The translations under genes were made by a program, and so were the position numbers. Below, piece by piece: positions 32,315-42,078 of a DNA stretch of 64,000 bases. Within the stretch, counting starts at the first letter, position 1. Each line of letters starts with the position of its first letter. The stretch lies in NCBI RefSeq assembly GCF_029504575.1, contig NZ_JAQFII010000001.1, positions 6,083,001 to 6,147,000 on the forward strand, in the 5' to 3' direction. The stretch is from Streptomyces sp. SPB162. Its GTDB lineage: Bacteria; Actinomycetota; Actinomycetes; Streptomycetales; Streptomycetaceae. The notes under the pieces were generated by a model, which was given only the letters and a program-made list of their open reading frames with translations, searched no databases and had not been told where the DNA came from.

Positions 32315-33112
32315 TCAGGCCGAGAGCAGTATCCGGCGGGGGAGGAGGGCCCCCGCGTAGCGCTCCAGCAGCAGCTCGACGAGTTCCGGGGCCGCGCCCA
32401 GCACAGGAGCCAGGGCGTCGGCGCCGGCCTCGCGGGCGCCGCGGAATATGCGGTCGGGAAGACGGCCCGGCGCGATGACGTAGGGGGCGACGGCGATGTG
32501 CCGCACGCCCTCCGCCCGCAGTTGCCGGACCGCGTCCTCGGTCCGGGGGAGGGATGCGGAGGCGAACGCAGGCCGCACGGCGCACCAACCGGTGTGCCGC
32601 CACTCCCGCGCGATTTCAGCGATCACTGCGATCGCCTCCGGGTCGGTGGAGCCCGCCGAGGCCAGGACGACCCCCGTCGAGCGGTCGCCGGGGGTGACCC
32701 CGGCCTCGGCCAGCCGCCGCTCCAAGGCGGCGGTCAGCAGGGGCGAGGGGCCGAGGACGTCGGCCACCGCGACCCGCAGCCGCGGGTGCGCGGCGGTCGA
32801 CTCGCGCAGCACGGCGGGTATGTCGGCCTTCGCGTGGAAGGCACGGGTGAGGAGCAGCGGCAGCGCGACGATGTCGCGGACCCCCTCCGCCGCGAGGCGG
32901 TCGACGACCTGCGACACGGTCGGCGCGCAGAAGTCGAGGTATGCGGTGGCGACGCGCAGCCCCGGCCGGGCCGCCCGTACCCGCTCGGTCAGCGCCTGGA
33001 CGGTCGCGGCATGGCGCGGATCGCGACTGCCGTGGGCGATGATCAGAAGGGGCGGCGCGGAGCGCCACGTCGCAGGGGTGGCGGTGGGCGACGGGTGGGC
33101 GGGCCCGTTCAT
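32315..33112 (-). CDS. Sirohydrochlorin chelatase (CbiX/SirB type)
   Basis: This 265-residue two-domain protein inserts Fe2+ (or Co2+) into sirohydrochlorin. Each half repeats the CbiX fold: LLIIAHGSRDPRHA (metal-ligand His) and LPLLLTRAFHAKADIP in the first, VVLASAGSTDPEA and VAPYVIAPGRLPDRI in the second. In the second half the chelatase His of the HGS motif is replaced by AGS, so one active site is expected. It is the last gene of the sulfur operon, one base after the permease, and makes siroheme for the sulfite reductase at its head. Confidence 0.9.
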   Translation of the reverse strand: MNGPAHPSPTATPATWRSAPPLLIIAHGSRDPRHAATVQALTERVRAARPGLRVATAYLDFCAPTVSQVVDRLAAEGVRDIVALPLLLTRAFHAKADIPAVLRESTAAHPRLRVAVADVLGPSPLLTAALERRLAEAGVTPGDRSTGVVLASAGSTDPEAIAVIAEIAREWRHTGWCAVRPAFASASLPRTEDAVRQLRAEGVRHIAVAPYVIAPGRLPDRIFRGAREAGADALAPVLGAAPELVELLLERYAGALLPRRILLSA

Positions 33113-34033
33113 TCACTGGCTCCTGGACACCAGGCCGCGGCTGCGCAGCACGCGCCGCTCCAGCGGGCTGAAGATCAGCAGGTCGATGGCGATGCCGACG
33201 ACGAGGATGAGGATGATGCCGAGGAAGATGCCCGGCATGTCGGACCCTTCGCGCATGTTCTCCAGGTAGCGCCCCAGGCCGGTGCCGAGGTCGGGGGAGG
33301 ACGCGATGAGTTCGGCGGCCATCAGGGAGCGCCAGGAGAAGGCCCAGCCCTGCTTGAGGCCGGCCAGGTAGCCGGGCAGCGCGGCCGGCAGCAGGATGTG
33401 CCGGGCGCCGCTGACCCCGGAGGCGCCGAGCGTGCGGCCGGCGCGCAGGTAGAGCGGCGGCACCTGGTCGATGCCGGAGATCAGGCCGTTGGCGATGGAG
33501 GGCACGGCGCCGAGCAGGATGACGGCGTACATCGCGGAGTCGGTGATGCCGAGCCAGATGACCGCGGCGGGCACCCAGGCCACCGACGGCAGCGACTGCA
33601 GGCCCGACAGGATCGGCCCGATGGCGGAGCGGACGAACGGGACGCGGGCCACGACGAGCCCGATCGGGGTGCCGATGGCGACCGCGGCGAGGAAGCCCAG
33701 CAGCCCGCGCTCGACGCTGGTCCAGACGATGTCGAAGAGCTGGCCCTCGTTCCACAGCGTCATGAAGCTGCTGCCGACCGCCCGGGGGGCGGGCAGCTTG
33801 GTCTCCGGCGCGAACCCGGCCAGCACGGCGAGCTGCCACACCACGAGGACCAGCACGACCGCCGAGACCGGCGGCAGCACCTTCTTGACCAGGACCTGGG
33901 TGAACGGGGTGCGCCGGACCTGGACCGTGTCCAGGGCGTCGAGCCCGGCCTCAAGACCCGCGAGGTCCTGCGTCCGGGCGCCGGCGTCCTGCTTGGCCCC
34001 CCGGTCGTCGGGAACGGTGTCAGTGCTGGCCAT
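33113..34033 (-). CDS. ssuC: Sulfonate/nitrate/taurine-type ABC transporter permease
   Basis: This 306-residue permease has six membrane segments and the loop GASGVSGARHILLPAALPGYLAG, the SsuC/TauC-type EAA motif. The ATG at 34033 has GGGGAGA nine bases upstream and is favoured over a GTG six codons earlier. It overlaps the end of the ATPase gene by 14 bases and abuts the chelatase gene. The position inside a sulfate-reduction operon points to uptake of organic sulfonates; sulfate itself is usually taken up by a CysTWA system not seen here. Confidence 0.9.
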   Translation of the reverse strand: MASTDTVPDDRGAKQDAGARTQDLAGLEAGLDALDTVQVRRTPFTQVLVKKVLPPVSAVVLVLVVWQLAVLAGFAPETKLPAPRAVGSSFMTLWNEGQLFDIVWTSVERGLLGFLAAVAIGTPIGLVVARVPFVRSAIGPILSGLQSLPSVAWVPAAVIWLGITDSAMYAVILLGAVPSIANGLISGIDQVPPLYLRAGRTLGASGVSGARHILLPAALPGYLAGLKQGWAFSWRSLMAAELIASSPDLGTGLGRYLENMREGSDMPGIFLGIILILVVGIAIDLLIFSPLERRVLRSRGLVSRSQ

Positions 34034-34829
34034 GTCGGCGGATCTCCCCACGCAGTTCTTCGGTGATCTCGATGGACAGCTCGGCGACGGCGGCGTCCTC
34101 GATACGGCGCGGCTGCGGGATGTCCACGGTCCACTCGCGGGCCACCCGGCCGGGGCGCGACGTCAGCAGCACCACGCGCTCGGCGAGCCGGACGGCCTCG
34201 CGCACGTTGTGGGTGACAAACAGGACGGAGACCCCCGTCTCGGCCCAGATACGGGTGAGCTCGCCGTGCAGGACGTCCCGGGTGATGGCGTCCAGCGCCG
34301 CGAACGGCTCGTCCATCAGCAGCACGTTGGAGTCCTGGGCGAGCGCGCGGGCGAGCGCGACGCGCTGCCGCATACCGCCCGACAGCTCGTGGACGCGCTT
34401 GCCGTACGAGCCGTCAAGGCGCACCAGACTGAGCAGCCGCTCGGCCTCCGCGCGGCGTTCGGCGCGCGGCACACCGCGCAGCCGCAGCGCCAGTTCGATG
34501 TTCTTGCCGGCGGTGAGCCACGGGAAGAGCGCGTGCTCCTGGAACATCAGCGCGGGACGGCCGCCGCCCGGCACCGTGATGGTGCCCGCGGTCGGCTGGT
34601 CGAGGCCCGCGACCAGGTTGAGCAGGGTCGACTTGCCGCAGCCGGAGGCGCCGAGGAGGCAGACGAACTCACCGGGATGGACGTCGAGGGTGATGTCGTC
34701 CAGGACCGCCTGGGCGGAGCCCGGACGGCCGAAGACCTTGTGGACGTGGTCGATCCGAACGGCGGGCGCGCCGTCTGCGACGGCGGTGTCCGCGCTGTGC
34801 TGCTCGGTGGTCCTGACTGCCGTGGCCAT
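34020..34829 (-). CDS. ssuB: Sulfonate/nitrate/taurine-type ABC transporter ATPase
   Basis: This 269-residue ATPase has Walker A GASGCGKSTLL, Q-loop LMFQEHALFPW, signature LSGGMRQRVALARAL, Walker B LLMDEPFAALD and switch His VTHNVREA. The spelling is typical of SsuB/TauB/NrtC. It powers import with the neighbouring permease and binding lipoprotein. A hairpin in the 117-base gap after the binding-protein gene may lower its expression relative to that protein. Confidence 0.92.
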   Translation of the reverse strand: MATAVRTTEQHSADTAVADGAPAVRIDHVHKVFGRPGSAQAVLDDITLDVHPGEFVCLLGASGCGKSTLLNLVAGLDQPTAGTITVPGGGRPALMFQEHALFPWLTAGKNIELALRLRGVPRAERRAEAERLLSLVRLDGSYGKRVHELSGGMRQRVALARALAQDSNVLLMDEPFAALDAITRDVLHGELTRIWAETGVSVLFVTHNVREAVRLAERVVLLTSRPGRVAREWTVDIPQPRRIEDAAVAELSIEITEELRGEIRRHGQH

Positions 34830-34878
34830 CCGGTCACCTCCTGGTACGTGGGCGGGCGGGCGGTGCGTGCTGCGGGCC

Positions 34879-34912
34879 GCCGGTGTCCGACCCCTGCGGG
34901 ACGGACACCGGC
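34879..34912 (-). terminator. Intercistronic hairpin between ssuA and ssuB
   Basis: GCCGGTGTCCG and CGGACACCGGC form a perfect 11-pair stem with a 12-base loop between the binding-protein stop and the ATPase start. There is no U-tract, so partial termination or mRNA 3'-end protection is more likely than a full stop, giving more binding protein than transporter. Confidence 0.65.
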
Positions 34913-34946
34913 TGCGCGTCGTCGGGCTTCCGTGTTACAGGTCGGG

Positions 34947-36071
34947 CTACTGCTTGCCGAGCCCCGCCGCGTCCACCGCGGGCTTGCCCGCGGCCGCGAG
35001 GACCTTGTTGAGCAGCGTCAGGTCGTAGATCCCGGCGAGGTCGGGCTTCTTCAGCAGGCCGGCCTTGACGGCGTGGTCGGCCTCGGAGGTCAGCGACTTG
35101 GCCAGCGGGTCGTCGATGACCTGGATGCCGGCCCACGCCGGGTCGAGGATCCCGGTCGGCAGTGCCTTCTGAGTGTCCTTCTTGAGCTGGGCGTTCGCCG
35201 CGGCCTTCGCCTTGTCCGGGTTGGCCGTGATCCAGGCGTTGGTGTTCACCGAACCCCGCAGCACCGCCTCGACGACGTCCGGGTGCGCCGCCAGGAACTT
35301 CTGCGACACGATGACGTTGGTGATCACGAACTTCTTGTCGGGCCACAGGTCACGCTCGTCGAGCAGCACCTTGGCGCCCTCGGAGACGAGCTTGGACGCC
35401 GTCGGCTCCGGCACCCACGCGCCGTCGATGGAACCGGACTTGTACGCGTCGGGGGTCACCTTGTTGTCGGTGCGGAAGACGGAGACGTCGCCCTTGCCGC
35501 TCTGCGCGTCGACCTTCCAGCCCTTTTCGGCGATCCAGTTGAGGAAGGCCACGTCCTGGGTGTTGCCGAGCTGCGGGGTCGCGATCTTCTTGCCCTTGAT
35601 GTCGTCCAGGGTCTTGATCTTCGCGGGGTTGACGACCAGCTTCACGCCGCCTGAGGCGGAGCCGGAGATGATCCGCAGGTTGGTGCTCTTCGACTTGGTG
35701 TAGCCGTTGATGGACGGCGAGGGGCCGATCCAGCCGATGTCGATGGAGCCGGCGTTCAGCGCCTCGATCTCGGACGGGCCCGCGTTGAAGGTCTGGGTCT
35801 TGACGGCGGTGCCGCCCAGCTCCTTCGCGAACAGGCCCTGGTTGAGGCCGACGAGCGCGGTGGCGTGGGTGAGGTTCGGGAAGTAGCCGATCTTCACCTC
35901 GTCGGCGGAGAGCTTCTTGGCACCCGAGCTGGCGACCGGGGCAGCGCCGCTGTCCTTCGTGTCGTCGGACTTCGAGCCGTACCCGCAGGCGGCGAGAGCG
36001 CCGAAGAGCAGCGGGAGGGTCGCGGCAGTGGCGATCGATCGCTTCAGGCTGCGGGTGGTTCTTGCAGACAC
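34947..36071 (-). CDS. ssuA: Aliphatic sulfonate-type ABC substrate-binding lipoprotein
   Basis: This 374-residue protein has a basic n-region, hydrophobic core and lipobox ALAAC (Cys near residue 29). It then has an SsuA/TauA/NrtA-type fold with KIGYFPNLTHATALVGLNQG and GSIDIGWIGPSPSINGY, the binding cleft typical of sulfonate or nitrate analogues. The GTG at 36071 has AGGAA eight bases upstream. Operon context favours sulfonates; the sequence alone does not exclude other anions. Confidence 0.9.
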   Translation of the reverse strand: MSARTTRSLKRSIATAATLPLLFGALAACGYGSKSDDTKDSGAAPVASSGAKKLSADEVKIGYFPNLTHATALVGLNQGLFAKELGGTAVKTQTFNAGPSEIEALNAGSIDIGWIGPSPSINGYTKSKSTNLRIISGSASGGVKLVVNPAKIKTLDDIKGKKIATPQLGNTQDVAFLNWIAEKGWKVDAQSGKGDVSVFRTDNKVTPDAYKSGSIDGAWVPEPTASKLVSEGAKVLLDERDLWPDKKFVITNVIVSQKFLAAHPDVVEAVLRGSVNTNAWITANPDKAKAAANAQLKKDTQKALPTGILDPAWAGIQVIDDPLAKSLTSEADHAVKAGLLKKPDLAGIYDLTLLNKVLAAAGKPAVDAAGLGKQ

Positions 36072-36181
36072 GGGAGGTGTTCCTCTCGGAGGTCCGGAAC
36101 GCGCCTAGCTCGGCGGGGCCGGAAGGTCGTCAGGTCTTCGGTGGCACGGGTGTACTCGCATGCGGTCGCGCGGTTCAGCGG

Positions 36182-36283
36182 TTAGAGCGCACATCGCGCC
36201 ACCCCGCCCGTGCCGGCGCCGAGGAGGCCGCTGCCGACGCGGCCGCCCTCCTTGGCGAAGCCCGAATACGCCTCGGTGACCAT
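36182..36283 (-). CDS. Possible 33-residue peptide coupled to cysN
   Basis: An ATG that overlaps the cysN stop (TGATG) opens a 33-codon frame, rich in Gly (10 of 33), ending in RCAL and TAA at 36182. Coupling to cysN makes translation likely, but no motif or known family is visible. It could be a real small protein or just re-initiation on the way to ssuA, whose own ribosome site is further downstream. Confidence 0.3.
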   Translation of the reverse strand: MVTEAYSGFAKEGGRVGSGLLGAGTGGVARCAL

Positions 36284-37632
36284 CAGAAGTCCCACCCCTC
36301 TTGTTCCTTCTCCGCGGCGGACGCGCCGGCCGCGGCCGGCGCGGCGAACGCCTCGCCCGCCATGCCCGCGGTCAGCGTCGTGCCGTCCGCCGGGTCGATC
36401 AGCAGGAAGGAGCCCGTCAGCCGCGAGTCCGCGTAGGCGTCCAGCGGCAGCGGCTCGGCGGTGCGCAGCACGACGGCGCCGATGTCGTTGACGTCCAGCT
36501 GCGCCGGTCCCGACTCGTGCGCGAGCCCGGCCGTCAGGTTGATGCGGTACGGGAGCTCCTTGACGACGGCCTTCACCGTGCGCGTCGCGTGCTTGAGCAG
36601 CACCCGGGAGCCGACCTTGAGCGGCCGCTCGTGCAGGTGGCAGACGGTCGCCTCGACGTCCTGGGTGGTCGCCGGCGCGGAGGCGGTCGGCGCGATCAGG
36701 TCGCCGCGCGAGATGTCCAGGTCGTCGGCGAGCAGCACGGTCACCGACTGCGGCGCCCAGGCGGTGTCCACCGACTCGCCGAGGGCGTCGATACCGGTGA
36801 TGGTGCTGGTCGCGCCGGACGGCAGGACCGTCACCTCGTCACCGACCCGCAGGATGCCCGAGGCGATCCGGCCCGCGTAGCCGCGGTAGTCCGGGTGCGC
36901 GGCGGTCTGCGGGCGGATCACGTACTGGACCGGGAAGCGGGCCGGGGCGTCGGTGAGGTCGGTGCCGACCTGCACCGTCTCCAGGTGCTCCAGGACGGTG
37001 GGGCCGCCGTACCAGTCCATGTTCGCGGACGCGGTCACGACGTTGTCCCCGGCGAGCGCCGAGATCGGGATCGTGGTGATGTCCGGGACGCCGAGCGACG
37101 CCGCGTACGCGGTGAACTCCTCGGCGATGGCCGCGAAGACGGGCTCCGCGTACTCCACCAGGTCCATCTTGTTGACGGCCAGCACCACGTGCGGGACGCG
37201 CAGCAGCGCGGCCACCGCGGCGTGCCGCCGGGTCTGCTCCACGACGCCGTTGCGGGCGTCGACGAGCACCACGGCCAGCTCGGCGGTCGAGGCTCCGGTG
37301 ACCATGTTGCGGGTGTACTGCACGTGGCCCGGGGTGTCGGCGAGGATGAAACGGCGCCGCGGGGTGGCGAAGTACCGGTACGCCACGTCGATGGTGATGC
37401 CCTGCTCGCGCTCGGCCCGCAGGCCGTCGGTGAGCAGCGCGAGGTCCGGCGCCTCCTGGCCGCGGCGGCGCGAGGCGTGTTCGACGGCCTCCAGCTGGTC
37501 GGTCAGGACCGACTTGGAGTCGTGCAGCAGTCGACCGACCAGGGTGGACTTGCCGTCGTCTACGGAGCCGGCGGTGGCGAAGCGCAGCTGCGAGGTGGCC
37601 GCGATCTGCTCGGCGGTGGTGATGCTGGTCAT
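36283..37632 (-). CDS. cysN: Sulfate adenylyltransferase, GTPase subunit
   Basis: CysN (449 residues) couples GTP hydrolysis to APS synthesis by CysD. The EF-Tu-like G domain shows GSVDDGKSTLVGRLL (G1), the switch region GITIDVAYRYF, DTPGHVQYTRNM (G3) and NKMDLV (G4). Two beta-barrel domains follow. It is not fused to an APS kinase, since CysC is separate. The start is directly adjacent to the cysD stop. The C-terminal tail EQEGWDF is short. Confidence 0.96.
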   Translation of the reverse strand: MTSITTAEQIAATSQLRFATAGSVDDGKSTLVGRLLHDSKSVLTDQLEAVEHASRRRGQEAPDLALLTDGLRAEREQGITIDVAYRYFATPRRRFILADTPGHVQYTRNMVTGASTAELAVVLVDARNGVVEQTRRHAAVAALLRVPHVVLAVNKMDLVEYAEPVFAAIAEEFTAYAASLGVPDITTIPISALAGDNVVTASANMDWYGGPTVLEHLETVQVGTDLTDAPARFPVQYVIRPQTAAHPDYRGYAGRIASGILRVGDEVTVLPSGATSTITGIDALGESVDTAWAPQSVTVLLADDLDISRGDLIAPTASAPATTQDVEATVCHLHERPLKVGSRVLLKHATRTVKAVVKELPYRINLTAGLAHESGPAQLDVNDIGAVVLRTAEPLPLDAYADSRLTGSFLLIDPADGTTLTAGMAGEAFAAPAAAGASAAEKEQEGWDF

Positions 37633-38559
37633 TTAGAAGTACCCCTCGCGCTTGCGGTCTTCCATCGCGGCCTCGGACATCTTGTCGTCGGCGCGGGTCG
37701 CGCCCCGCTCGGTGAGCCGGGACGCGGCGATCTCCACGATGACCTGGTCGATGGTGAAGGCGTCGGAGTCCACCGCGCCGGTGCAGGACATGTCCCCGAC
37801 GGTGCGGTAGCGGATGGTCCGCTTCTCGACGGTCTCGCCGGGCTTCGGGCCGCCCCAGTCGCCCGCCGTCAGCCACATGCCGCTGCGGGCGAAGACGTCC
37901 CGCTCGTGCGCGTAGTAGATCTCCGGCAGTTCGATGCCCTCGCGGGCGATGTACTGCCACACGTCCAGCTCGGTCCAGTTGGAGAGCGGGAAGACCCGGA
38001 CGTGCTCGCCGGCCGCGTGCTTGCCGTTGTAGAGCTGCCACAGCTCGGGGCGCTGGCGGCGCGGGTCCCAGGCGCCGAACTCGTCGCGCAGGGAGAAGAC
38101 GCGCTCCTTGGCGCGGGCCTTCTCCTCGTCGCGGCGGCCGCCGCCGAAGACCGCGTCGAACCGGCCCTCGCCGATCGCGTCGAGCAGCGGCACCGTCTGC
38201 AGCGGGTTGCGGGTCCCGTCGGGGCGCTCGCGCAGCCGGCCGTCGTCGATGTAGTCCTGCACGCTCGCCACGTGCAGGCGCAGGCCGTGCTCGGCGACCG
38301 TGCGGTCCCGGTACTCCAGCACCTCGGGGAAGTTGTGGCCGGTGTCCACGTGCAGCAGCGAGAACGGCACCGCGGCCGGCGCGAACGCCTTCAGCGCCAG
38401 GTGCAGCATGACGATGGAGTCCTTGCCGCCGGAGAAGAGGATCACCGGCCGCTCGAACTCGCCCGCGACCTCGCGGAAGATGTGCACCGCCTCGGACTCG
38501 AGCGCGTCCAGGTGGCTCAGCGCGTACGCGGATTCATTGGGTGCGGCAACGGTGGTCAC
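37633..38559 (-). CDS. cysD: Sulfate adenylyltransferase, catalytic subunit
   Basis: CysD (308 residues) makes adenosine 5'-phosphosulfate from ATP and sulfate. The PP-loop FSGGKDSIVMLH and the block FGGGRRDEEKARAKERVFS are family hallmarks, with RPELWQLYNGK and NWTELDVWQYI further on. The GTG at 38559 overlaps the cysC stop (GTGA) and has GAGAGGGG upstream. It works as a complex with CysN, whose gene follows without a gap. Confidence 0.96.
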   Translation of the reverse strand: MTTVAAPNESAYALSHLDALESEAVHIFREVAGEFERPVILFSGGKDSIVMLHLALKAFAPAAVPFSLLHVDTGHNFPEVLEYRDRTVAEHGLRLHVASVQDYIDDGRLRERPDGTRNPLQTVPLLDAIGEGRFDAVFGGGRRDEEKARAKERVFSLRDEFGAWDPRRQRPELWQLYNGKHAAGEHVRVFPLSNWTELDVWQYIAREGIELPEIYYAHERDVFARSGMWLTAGDWGGPKPGETVEKRTIRYRTVGDMSCTGAVDSDAFTIDQVIVEIAASRLTERGATRADDKMSEAAMEDRKREGYF

Positions 38560-39116
38560 AGTGCCAGTCCCCTCTCGACGAGCAGCGCCTGCAGCGCCGC
38601 GGCGGAGTCCTCGACGGTGCGCCCGTGGGTCTCGAGGCGCAGATCCGGTGCCTCGGGCGTCTCGTACGGGTCGTCGACCCCGGTGAGCCCGGAGATCTCA
38701 CCGGCGGCCTGTTTCGCGTACAGCCCCTTCACATCGCGTTCCGAGCACACCTCGACCGGCGTGGCCACGTGCACCTCCAGATACGGGGTGCCCTGCTTCC
38801 GGTGGCGCCCGCGGACGGCCTCGCGGCTGTCCGCGTAGGGGGCGATGACGGGGACGAGGACCTTGATCCCATTGGAGGCCAGCAGTTCGGCGACGAAGCC
38901 GATCCGCTGCACGTTGGTGTGCCGGTCCTCGCGGGTGAAGCCGAGCCCGGCGGAGAGGAACTCGCGGATCTCGTCGCCGTCCAGCACCTCCACCCGGTGG
39001 CCCGCGTCGCGCAGCCGGTCCGCCAGCGCGAAGGCGACCGTGGTCTTGCCGGCGCTGGGCAGCCCGGTGAGCCACACCGTGGCGCCTGCCTCCCGCGGGC
39101 TCGCTGTCGCGCTCAT
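38556..39116 (-). CDS. cysC: Adenylylsulfate kinase
   Basis: CysC (186 residues) phosphorylates APS to PAPS. It has the P-loop GLPSAGKTT, VEVLDGDEIREFLSAGLGF, REDRHTNVQRIGFVA and PYADSREAVR, which are APS-kinase motifs. The ATG at 39116 has AGGAG six bases upstream; an ATG at 39146 that overlaps the cysH stop would add ten residues and cannot be excluded. Its presence next to a cysH of the iron-sulfur type means that both APS and PAPS could be used. Confidence 0.94.
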   Translation of the reverse strand: MSATASPREAGATVWLTGLPSAGKTTVAFALADRLRDAGHRVEVLDGDEIREFLSAGLGFTREDRHTNVQRIGFVAELLASNGIKVLVPVIAPYADSREAVRGRHRKQGTPYLEVHVATPVEVCSERDVKGLYAKQAAGEISGLTGVDDPYETPEAPDLRLETHGRTVEDSAAALQALLVERGLAL

Positions 39117-39145
39117 CTCTCGCTCCTGGGATATCTGAGTGGTCA

Positions 39146-39850
39146 TCAGCCGTGCAGCCCGCACTCGGTCTTGCCGCGGCCTGCCCAGCGGCCGGCGCGG
39201 GCGTCCTCGCCCTCCAGCACCCGGCGGGTGCACGGGGCGCAGCCGACGGACGCGTAACCGTCCATCAGCAGCGGGTTGGTCAGCACCCCGAACTCCTCGA
39301 CGTACGCGTCCACGTCCGCCTGCGTCCAGCGGGCGATCGGGGAGATCTTCACCTTGCGGCGCTTCTCGTCCCAGCCGACGACCGGGGTGTTGGCGCGGGT
39401 CGGGGACTCGTCGCGGCGCAGCCCGGTGGCCCAGGCGTCGTACGCGGTCAGTCCCTCCTCCAGCGGCTTGACCTTGCGCAGCGCGCAGCACAGGTCCGGG
39501 TCACGGTCGTGCAGCTTCGGGCCGTACTGGGCGTCCTGTTCCGCGACGCTCTGTACCGGGGTCAGCGTGATCAGGTTGACGTCCATCACCGCACCCACGG
39601 CGTCGCGGGTGCCGATGGTCTCGGGGAAGTGGTAGCCGGTGTCGAGGAAGACGACGTCCACGCCGGGAAAGGCGCGGGACGCCAGGTGCGCCACGACGGC
39701 GTCCTCCATCGAGGATGTGACGCAGAAGCGCGGGCCGAACGTCTCGGCGGCCCAGCGCAGTATCTCCAGCGGGGACGCGTCCTCGAGGTCGCGGCCCGCC
39801 TGCTCGGCCAGATCGCGCAGGTCTTCGGCGGTGTGCTGTGCGGTGGTCAC
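39146..39850 (-). CDS. cysH: Assimilatory APS/PAPS reductase with FeS-type cysteines
   Basis: This 234-residue reductase makes sulfite from activated sulfate using thioredoxin. DTGYHFPET is the PP-loop-like substrate segment, and KTECGLHG at the C-terminus holds the catalytic Cys. It has CC in DLCCALRKVKPL and a CxxC in GCAPCTRRV, the four ligands of the [4Fe-4S] cluster that marks APS reductases rather than classical enterobacterial PAPS reductases. The GTG at 39850 overlaps the stop of the small zinc-ribbon gene (GTGA). Confidence 0.94.
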   Translation of the reverse strand: MTTAQHTAEDLRDLAEQAGRDLEDASPLEILRWAAETFGPRFCVTSSMEDAVVAHLASRAFPGVDVVFLDTGYHFPETIGTRDAVGAVMDVNLITLTPVQSVAEQDAQYGPKLHDRDPDLCCALRKVKPLEEGLTAYDAWATGLRRDESPTRANTPVVGWDEKRRKVKISPIARWTQADVDAYVEEFGVLTNPLLMDGYASVGCAPCTRRVLEGEDARAGRWAGRGKTECGLHG

Positions 39851-40041
39851 GACTCGCCTCCGGTCGGGGGGTTCTGGTGAAGTCCCTGGGCCAGCAGGCC
39901 GAGGAACTTCAACTGAAAGGCCCGGTTGCACGCCCGGCATTCCCAGGCGGCGCCCGATCCGTGCGGAACCTTCTCCTCGGAGGGGCGCAGATCCTCGTCC
40001 CCGCAGTACGGGCAGTAGAACGGCGCGGCGCGTTCGGTCAT
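39847..40041 (-). CDS. Small zinc-ribbon protein between sulfite reductase and cysH
   Basis: This 64-residue protein has a CPYCGDEDLRPSEEK knuckle and a CRACNRAFQLKF knuckle, 22 residues apart, so a single zinc ribbon is likely. Its ATG overlaps the sulfite reductase stop and its stop overlaps the cysH start, both by four bases, so it is made in step with both enzymes. I recall the same small gene at this place in the S. coelicolor sulfur cluster. Function is unknown; help with FeS or siroheme enzymes, or redox regulation, is possible. Confidence 0.85.
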   Translation of the reverse strand: MTERAAPFYCPYCGDEDLRPSEEKVPHGSGAAWECRACNRAFQLKFLGLLAQGLHQNPPTGGES

Positions 40042-41735
40042 GACAGGGCCTCCTCGGAGGCGCGGGCGGCCCAGGTCGCGAAGCGCTCGTCACCCTCGCG
40101 CTCGTCCTCGAACCGACGCAGCACGCGCTCGACGTAGTCGCCCAGGCCGGCGGAGGTGACCTTCAGCCCGCGCACCTTGCGGCCGAAGCCGGGGTCCAGG
40201 CCGAGGCTGCCGCCCAGGTGCACCTGGAAGCCCTCGACCTGCTCGCCGTTCTCGTCGGTGACCAGCTGGCCCTTGAGACCGATGTCCGCCACCTGGATGC
40301 GGGCGCAGGAGTTGGGGCAGCCGTTGACGTTGATGGTCAGCGGCTGGTCGAAGTCCGGCAGCCGGTGCTCCAGCTCGTCGATGAGGGAGGCGCCGCGCGC
40401 CTTGGTCTCGACGATGGCCAGCTTGCAGTACTCGATGCCGGTGCAGGCCATGGTGCCGCGCCGGAACGGGGACGGCTTCACCTGGAAGCCGAGCGCCTCG
40501 AGACCGGCCACCAGCGACTCGACCCGGGACTCCGCGACGTCCAGCACGATCATCTTCTGCTCGACCGTGGTGCGCAGCCGGCCCGAGCCGTGCTCCGCCG
40601 CCAGCTCCGCGATCTTCGTCAGCGTGGAGCCGTCGATCCGGCCGACCCGCGGCGCGAAGCCCACGTAGAAGCGGCCGTCGTGCTGGCGGTGCACGCCGAC
40701 GTGGTCGCGCCACTGCTGCTCGGGGTGGACGGGCGCGGGGCCGTCGATGAGCTCGCGCTTCAGGTACTCGTCCTCCAGGACCTGCCGGAACTTCTCGCTG
40801 CCCCAGTCCGCGACCAGGAACTTCAGCCGGGCGCGGTTGCGCAGCCGGCGGTACCCGTAGTCGCGGAAGATGCCGATGACACCGGCCCAGACGTCGCTGA
40901 CGTCCTCCAGCGCGACCCACGCGCCGAGCCGCACGCCCAGCTTGGCGTTGGTGGACAGCCCGCCGCCGACCCACAGGTCGAAGCCGGGGCCGTGCTCGGG
41001 GTGGTTCACACCGACGAAGGCGACGTCGTTGATCTCGTGCGCCACGTCCAGCAGCGGCGAACCGGAGATCGCCGTCTTGAACTTGCGCGGGAGGTTGGAG
41101 AAGTCCTTGGAGCCGATGTAGCGCGTGTGGATCTCGTCGATCGCGGAACTGCCGTCGATGATCTCGTCGGCCGCGATCCCCGCGACCGGCGAGCCGAGGA
41201 TGGTGCGCGGGGTGTCGCCGCACGCCTCGGTGGTGGACAGGCCGACGGCCTCCAGCCGGCGCCAGATCTCCGGGACGTCCTCGATCCGGATCCAGTGGTA
41301 CTGGATGTTCTGCCGGTCCGTCAGGTCCGCGGTGCCGCGGGCGAACTCCTGCGAGATCTCGCCGATGACGCGCAGCTGCTCGGTGGTGAGCCGGCCGCCG
41401 TCGATGCGGACCCGCAGCATGAAGTACTCGTCGTCCAGCTCGTGCGGCTCCAGGACGGCGGTCTTGCCGCCGTCGATCCCGGGCCTGCGCTGGGTGTAGA
41501 GACCCCACCAGCGCATGCGTCCGCGGAGGTCGGCGGGGTCGATCGAGTCGAAGCCGCGCTGGGAGTAGATCGTCTCAATGCGTGTCCGCACGTTGAGACC
41601 GTCGTCGTCCTTCTTCGTCTGCTCGTTGGCGTTGAGCGGGGTGAAGTGGCCCATCGCCCACTGGCCCTCACCACGGTGGCGTCCGGCCTTGCGGCGGGCC
41701 GTGGTGTCGGCTGGTTGATCAGGAGTGGAGGCCAT
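40038..41735 (-). CDS. Ferredoxin-type sulfite reductase
   Basis: This 565-residue enzyme reduces sulfite to sulfide with six electrons from ferredoxin. The siroheme/[4Fe-4S] ligands are in CTGIEYCKLA and NGCPNSCARIQ, and the RRRGxxT-type substrate residues lie in the two internal halves. The family includes nitrite reductases; the sulfur operon and siroheme chelatase make sulfite the likely substrate. The ATG at 41735 has AAGGA upstream. It is the first enzyme gene of a roughly 9-kb minus-strand operon headed by the leader peptide at 41986. Confidence 0.93.
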   Translation of the reverse strand: MASTPDQPADTTARRKAGRHRGEGQWAMGHFTPLNANEQTKKDDDGLNVRTRIETIYSQRGFDSIDPADLRGRMRWWGLYTQRRPGIDGGKTAVLEPHELDDEYFMLRVRIDGGRLTTEQLRVIGEISQEFARGTADLTDRQNIQYHWIRIEDVPEIWRRLEAVGLSTTEACGDTPRTILGSPVAGIAADEIIDGSSAIDEIHTRYIGSKDFSNLPRKFKTAISGSPLLDVAHEINDVAFVGVNHPEHGPGFDLWVGGGLSTNAKLGVRLGAWVALEDVSDVWAGVIGIFRDYGYRRLRNRARLKFLVADWGSEKFRQVLEDEYLKRELIDGPAPVHPEQQWRDHVGVHRQHDGRFYVGFAPRVGRIDGSTLTKIAELAAEHGSGRLRTTVEQKMIVLDVAESRVESLVAGLEALGFQVKPSPFRRGTMACTGIEYCKLAIVETKARGASLIDELEHRLPDFDQPLTINVNGCPNSCARIQVADIGLKGQLVTDENGEQVEGFQVHLGGSLGLDPGFGRKVRGLKVTSAGLGDYVERVLRRFEDEREGDERFATWAARASEEALS

Positions 41736-41881
41736 GGCGATGCGTCCTTCGGGCAGCGGCGAATACGTCGGTGTTAGCGCGGATGCACCCTATGGCCTGC
41801 GGAAACCTGAAAACGATCAGGGCAGTTGGCAGCGGCGGGGCGCGTGGCGCGACCTCGACACGAGAGGGTGGCGGGTTGCCG

Positions 41882-41895
41882 GCGCCGATCGGCGC
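41882..41895 (-). promoter_or_regulatory. Perfect palindrome after the leader peptide, candidate attenuator
   Basis: GCGCCGATCGGCGC is a perfect 14-base palindrome starting eight bases after the leader stop and able to form a hairpin in the mRNA. A ribosome stalled at the leader's late Cys codon would sit next to it. No U-tract follows. Confidence 0.45.
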
Positions 41896-41902
41896 GGCGC
41901 GA

Positions 41903-41986
41903 TCAGATCGCCGGACAGATGGCGCTGGACACGCGGCAGAAGTCGACGTGCGGCCGACCTACCAAGGCGATTCCAGTGCGGGACAT
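41903..41986 (-). CDS. Cysteine-containing leader peptide of the sulfur operon
   Basis: This 27-residue ORF reads MSRTGIALVGRPHVDFCRVS and continues SAICPAI. It matches the actinobacterial putative-leader-peptide pattern (R-x-H-V-D-x-C-R-V-x-S-x-x-C) found before cysteine and sulfur genes. Cys codons are at positions 17 and 24. In mycobacteria, Cys-rich short ORFs are known to attenuate downstream genes when cysteine is plentiful; by analogy this one should sense Cys-tRNA for the operon beginning at 41735. There is no clear ribosome site, so the mRNA may be leaderless. The ORF lies 167 bases before sulfite reductase. Confidence 0.82.
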   Translation of the reverse strand: MSRTGIALVGRPHVDFCRVSSAICPAI

Positions 41987-42027
41987 GTCGGAAGCGTGGC
42001 ATGCGGGTCTCGGAGCAGTCCACCGTC

Positions 42028-42042
42028 GTCCAGTATGTGGAC
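42028..42042. promoter_or_regulatory. Inverted repeat upstream of the leader peptide
   Basis: GTCCA-GTATG-TGGAC is a perfect 5-base inverted repeat with 5-base spacer, 42 bases before the leader ATG. On the minus strand it contains CATACT, a possible -10 element, so it could be an operator overlapping the sulfur operon promoter. Confidence 0.4.
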
Positions 42043-42078
42043 CAGAATATCCCACCTAGTGAGACGTTGTGTTCTGCG

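Follow-up and report, generated by a model that had tools for sequence, protein, structure and literature searches.

Sulfur operon and leader peptide

The window analysed here is a stretch of 64,000 nucleotides from Streptomyces sp. SPB162. It contains a minus-strand run of sulfur genes from 41735 to 32315, in agreement with the nine-kb operon proposed in an initial annotation of this DNA. The run opens with cysI, encoding sulfite reductase (40038..41735), and continues (32315..40041, minus strand) with a zinc-ribbon ORF, cysH, cysC, cysD, cysN, genes for an ssuA-type (aliphatic-sulfonate-type) binding protein, an ATPase and a permease, and lastly the sirohydrochlorin chelatase gene. In S. coelicolor, expression of the corresponding genes (SCO6094-SCO6102) increases jointly upon oxidative stress (PMC4991794), which fits a single unit. 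However, ssuA is preceded by some 210 bp of intergenic DNA, which leaves room for a second transcription start. The cysI-cysH interval holds a 64-aa ORF (40041-39847, minus strand) in the place of SCO6101, and its zinc-ribbon match falls below the Pfam cut-off.

Upstream of cysI by 167 nt, and on the same strand, lies a 27-codon ORF (41903..41986) that runs from an ATG at 41986 to a TGA at 41905-41903 and encodes the peptide MSRTGIALVGRPHVDFCRVSSAICPAI. It has two cysteine codons, TGC at codon 17 (41936..41938) and TGT at codon 24 (41915..41917). The peptide matches the NCBIfam family NF042934, 'putative leader peptide' (cis_reg_atten), with 35.6 bits (E 4.7e-9) against a curated cut-off of 27 bits, and the same ORF occupies the same place at 43 Streptomycetaceae cysI loci from two genera. 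Two claims of the initial annotation are thereby borne out, namely that such an ORF with Cys 17 and Cys 24 precedes sulfite reductase and that it follows the actinobacterial sulfur leader-peptide pattern. Against the stricter Ms4527A profile the leader scores 24.1 bits, under the cut-off of 45, and it lacks a consecutive Cys tract, with cysteine at positions 17 and 24 only.

Probable promoter and operator

A probable -10 element, CACGCT (41993..41998, minus strand), is conserved in the 43 loci and lies six bases before the leader ATG. Separated from it by an 18-base spacer is a probable -35 element, TGGACT (42017..42022, minus strand), conserved in relatives. In this copy the -10 departs from the consensus, and a sigma-70 scan did not find it. 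Across the family, 71/119 leaders have a TANNNT box whose end lies 5-8 nt from an in-frame start, compared with 2/238 out of frame, so leaderless transcription looks general; the present copy has CACGCT in place of TANNNT. A leaderless transcript of the operon, starting at 41986, is plausible.

Just upstream of the -35 element is a 15-bp inverted repeat, GTCCACATACTGGAC (42028..42042, minus strand), which is conserved in relatives. It is the 5-5-5 inverted repeat, GTCCA-CATAC-TGGAC (42042-42028), of the initial annotation. As it lies upstream of the putative promoter, it would be absent from the transcript. It fits the NdgR ChIP-seq motif (PMC4340878) at 14 of 15 positions. Because the window holds three further 14/15 matches, the motif match by itself is no proof. 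In that study, the S. coelicolor NdgR site list includes GTCCACATTTTGGAT, cysI (SCO6102) is named as NdgR-bound, and the cysM and rhodanese units likewise have NdgR bound upstream of them (PMC4340878). We infer that the GTCCACATTTTGGAT peak belongs to cysI, and the repeat is probably an NdgR operator. The cysM and rhodanese units of the present genome carry leaders as well, an indication that cysI, rhodanese and cysM units are each under the control of both NdgR and a leader. Control is probably layered, with NdgR at the promoter and the leader on the transcript. The 15-bp operator before cysI is common to the NdgR regulon study and the present locus, but the sections of that study consulted say nothing of leader peptides at these genes (PMC4340878).

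A second conserved inverted repeat (42065-42049, minus strand) lies further upstream of the NdgR-like site. It also occurs at L045, L053, L054 and other loci. In the sister genus it reads TTGTCTCR-N5-YGAGACAA, and here it is degenerate.

A near-invariant cysteine codon

Both cysteine codons of the leader had been put forward as sensors. This does not hold across the 43 cysI loci of the two genera, where Cys24 is the only cysteine generally kept. At position 17, most of the sister genus has Gly, as do some members of the leader's own genus. Cys24 is also the sole cysteine conserved family-wide, at the end of a peptide motif that is shared across leaders, [HA]-V-D-L-x-R-V-x-S-x-x-C.

Throughout the class, this conserved cysteine is encoded by TGT in 135 of 137 leaders. 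The set comprises 119 leaders recognised by a first motif pattern, every one of them with TGT (119/119), and 18 more parsed from 19 loci that the pattern had missed. One of these 19 has no leader, sixteen have TGT and two have TGC. In the two exceptions, L107 and L109 (25.9 bits, under the cut-off), TGC stands at this place, but a Cys run holds TGT two codons upstream. The other cysteine codons of the same 119 leaders are TGC in 121 cases and TGT in 21 (15% TGT), and the gene background has 7-14% TGT: 181 TGC and 14 TGT in CysI genes, 44 and 5 in the genes of the window, and 951 and 149 in gene-like ORFs of 80 loci. The leaders are related, and very small p-values for the TGT bias are inexact for this reason. 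When the 119 leaders are collapsed into 47 groups below 70% identity, every group still has TGT.

Several other sources of such a rule were considered. Selection bias in the profile search was discarded after a DNA pattern scan that allowed either TGY codon in a separate genome collection returned 80/80 TGT, most of these being Streptomyces cysI leaders. A general synonymous constraint was not evident between genera, where variation is 0.230 in the leader and 0.231 in cysI, although within genera leader variation is about half that of cysI, with only 3 sister-genus loci comparable. A programmed frameshift at UGU was rejected, as the +1 and -1 frames have no fixed length and indels follow UGU in relatives. 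Other invariant residues of the motif (Arg -1, Asp 3 and Arg 6) each use several codons.

The single conserved UGU codon is probably the sensor, because the sole conserved cysteine is almost always UGU. It lies 0-5 codons ahead of the stop in nearly all leaders. As a separate observation, a G follows TGT in 1/119 leaders, where about a third would be expected.

A search of the genome for tRNA-Cys genes identified two (L320:1470-1541 and L321:1469-1542), both with the anticodon GCA, and none with ACA; the two genes clearly differ in sequence. UGC and UGU therefore appear to share one anticodon, with UGU decoded through a G:U wobble pair. In E. coli attenuators, codon choice is conventionally attributed to selective charging of isoacceptors (PMC1183508). 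That account does not readily extend to a preference between two codons that have a single anticodon in common. Slower wobble decoding could account for the choice instead. In its broadest form, the proposal for class Actinomycetes is that a position-fixed, wobble-read UGU behind a conserved nascent peptide serves as a single-codon cysteine sensor whose threshold is set by decoding kinetics, possibly together with the peptide in the tunnel. The case for and against this proposal appears evenly balanced.

Leader RNA and spacer

The initial annotation had combined the leader-peptide sensor with a hairpin, and of these the sensor idea stands while the hairpin mechanism does not. The perfect 14-base palindrome after the leader stop, GCGCCGATCGGCGC (41882-41895), is present, although it follows the stop by seven bases and not by eight. 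Palindromes of this length number 21 in the window, compared with 17.1 +/- 2.6 expected, and among aligned relatives this one is intact in one, altered in three and missing from most of the genus. Roles as a hairpin or as an operator were both rejected on the grounds that the palindrome is chance-level and lineage-specific; it is probably outside the mechanism.

The 167-nt spacer between the leader stop and cysI (41736..41902, minus strand) has no intrinsic terminator according to a terminator scan, and the palindrome lacks a T-run. On folding, the whole leader was predicted to be no more stable than shuffled sequences (z 0.15). Neither an antiterminator nor alternative hairpins were found. 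No consensus fold or covariation was found inside the leader motif region, and no Rfam family matches within the window.

A Shine-Dalgarno sequence, GAAGGAC, lies near the 3' end of the spacer. Predicted accessibility of this cysI ribosome-binding site does not change with the leader, at 0.497 free and 0.486 with the leader masked; the read-out at the ribosome site reported for mycobacteria is not reproduced by modelled folding at this locus. Folding across the family gives some slight support for a masked ribosome-binding site, but foreign leaders are predicted to mask it almost as well as native ones (0.287 for native and 0.326 for foreign leaders, p 0.04). From the stop codon onward, family spacers are C-rich and G-poor, with a skew of about 0.20, compared with 0.047 in regions upstream of ordinary genes, which are only roughly matched controls.

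Proposed mechanism and alternatives

Family membership, conservation, synteny with the experimentally studied mycobacterial Ms4527A leader and five sister leaders before other sulfur genes of the genome together give good support to the idea that a leader peptide attenuates the sulfur operon in response to cysteine. We consider it likely that the ORF acts as a leader of the NF042934/Ms4527A kind, on which ribosomes stall when cysteine is short. Transcription would begin at or adjacent to the leader ATG, and ribosomes would load straight onto the leader, translate the conserved short peptide and arrive at UGU24, three codons before the stop. With ample Cys-tRNA, they would pass UGU, terminate and leave, and the operon would stay low. 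With scarce Cys-tRNA, a ribosome would pause at the wobble-read UGU and, by standing at the leader's end, would let cysI and the downstream genes be expressed.

How the pause would be converted into expression is a separate matter. In our analysis, translational release of cysI would be the most likely output step, at roughly even chances, with Rho a possible but clearly less probable route and other routes less probable again. One consideration against the single-UGU reading is that standard attenuation theory expects little sensitivity from only one regulatory codon (PMC1183508).

The Rho alternative, to which we give a tentative and minor share, holds that the spacer is a Rho loading site exposed once the ribosome leaves, and that a ribosome paused at UGU covers the start of this site, comparable to the tna operon. 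The C-rich, G-poor spacers (skew about 0.20, compared with 0.047), the placement of the sensor codon 0-5 codons from the stop in nearly all leaders and the missing intrinsic terminator all agree with it, and Rho was proposed earlier for mycobacterial cys leaders (PMC1262725). However, this agreement is one of composition, measured against roughly matched control regions, and the mycobacterial counterpart is reported to be translational (PMC13236596).

Less probable still is an arrest peptide, in which the nascent chain itself would stall the ribosome and may sense an extra signal, such as a sulfur metabolite. The motif keeps the same spacing in leaders that precede unrelated sulfur genes, most of its invariant residues use several codons, and no conserved RNA structure offers a different explanation of it. 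The profile search itself selects the motif, however. Cys-tRNA is also the simpler signal, given a sensor residue that is Cys in every case and downstream genes that belong to cysteine metabolism, and arrest in the P site would not require UGU over UGC.

It is unlikely that UGU is retained for RNA pairing or binding rather than as a codon. The scarcity of G after TGT (1/119) would suit such a role, and in cysI leaders, though only there, UGUCC could pair with the GGAC of the ribosome-binding site. Yet the complementary word is not enriched downstream, the folds have no fixed partner, the flanking bases vary among leaders, and the family-wide difference in masking between native and foreign leaders is the small one given above.

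Transcription attenuation of the classical type, in which the palindrome would form the terminator hairpin and both Cys codons would be sensors, has the leader ORF and the palindrome in its favour, but it is very improbable given a palindrome that is chance-level, unconserved and without a T-run, and a Cys17 that is not conserved. A functional small protein without cis regulation would explain the conserved peptide and is the least probable reading of all, as the ORF always adjoins sulfur genes, varies in its 3' tail and length, has a near-fixed codon at one position and has a mycobacterial counterpart that is reported as cis-regulatory.

Relation to known leaders

The leader is a further member of the already described NF042934/Ms4527A family, and the basic idea is known, because it belongs to NF042934 and corresponds in position to Ms4527A, the cysteine attenuator of mycobacteria. 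Canestrari et al. (2020) reportedly described Ms4527A in Mycobacterium smegmatis, together with other leaderless short ORFs of the polycysteine type. The family models are related, both leaders stand before a sulfite reductase gene, several leaders per genome precede cysteine genes, and the family architecture looks leaderless. In contrast to Ms4527A, the present leader has two separated cysteines, one of them conserved, and no polycysteine tract. Leaders of the Ms4527A type are reported to be cysteine-responsive attenuators in M. smegmatis, a link made by experiment (PMC9031893, PMC13236596, PMC9094748).

Other actinobacterial cys leaders (Seliverstov et al. 2005; PMC1262725) likewise place Cys codons near the stop without a terminator hairpin, but the leaders described there, from Mycobacterium, P. 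acnes and B. longum, have runs of Cys codons rather than one conserved Cys. Attenuation of the enterobacterial trp, his and leu operons also uses a sensor codon within a leader ORF, with rare sensor codons in leu (PMC1183508), but neither a terminator nor alternative hairpins were found in the present system.

The NF042934 model is a protein profile and is silent on codon choice, to which the UGU rule is added here. This rule appears to be new; it was not found in the literature searched, which did not cover the primary paper by Canestrari et al. (2020). If true, a near-invariant UGU would replace 'cysteine codons' as the sensor by one particular codon at a defined position. A synonymous UGU-to-UGC change would then test whether wobble decoding sets the sensitivity of the attenuator. 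The rule would also aid the annotation of leaders with few Cys residues.

Sister leaders and family distribution

A genome search identified six such leaders, five above the NF042934 cut-off and one below. All six precede sulfur genes: cysO-cysM, cysI, a luciferase-like monooxygenase gene, a rhodanese gene, an ABC permease gene and a cysteine dioxygenase gene. The last of these leaders (L006; G000:C1:3461213-3461266, minus strand) has TGT as its sensor codon and lies before the cysteine dioxygenase and a rhodanese; similar HMDLVRYAGCVC leaders occur in relatives (L104, L113-L115 and L143). Induction of a cysteine-degrading dioxygenase by cysteine shortage would be paradoxical. This leader and the non-consensus -10 of the cysI copy both count against the stalling explanation preferred above.

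The NF042934-type family is present in 110 of 148 sampled genomes of class Actinomycetes. Outside the class, about 230 sampled genomes of the phylum gave one weak match, and 14 control genomes gave none (0/14). Two mycobacterial-type cysI leaders, L108 and L119, pass the Ms4527A model with 57.7 and 53.4 bits (cut-off 45). At two loci (L163, G055:C251; L075, G164:C520), leaders occur as back-to-back pairs, one before cysI and the other in the opposite direction, which suggests divergent units that each have their own leader.
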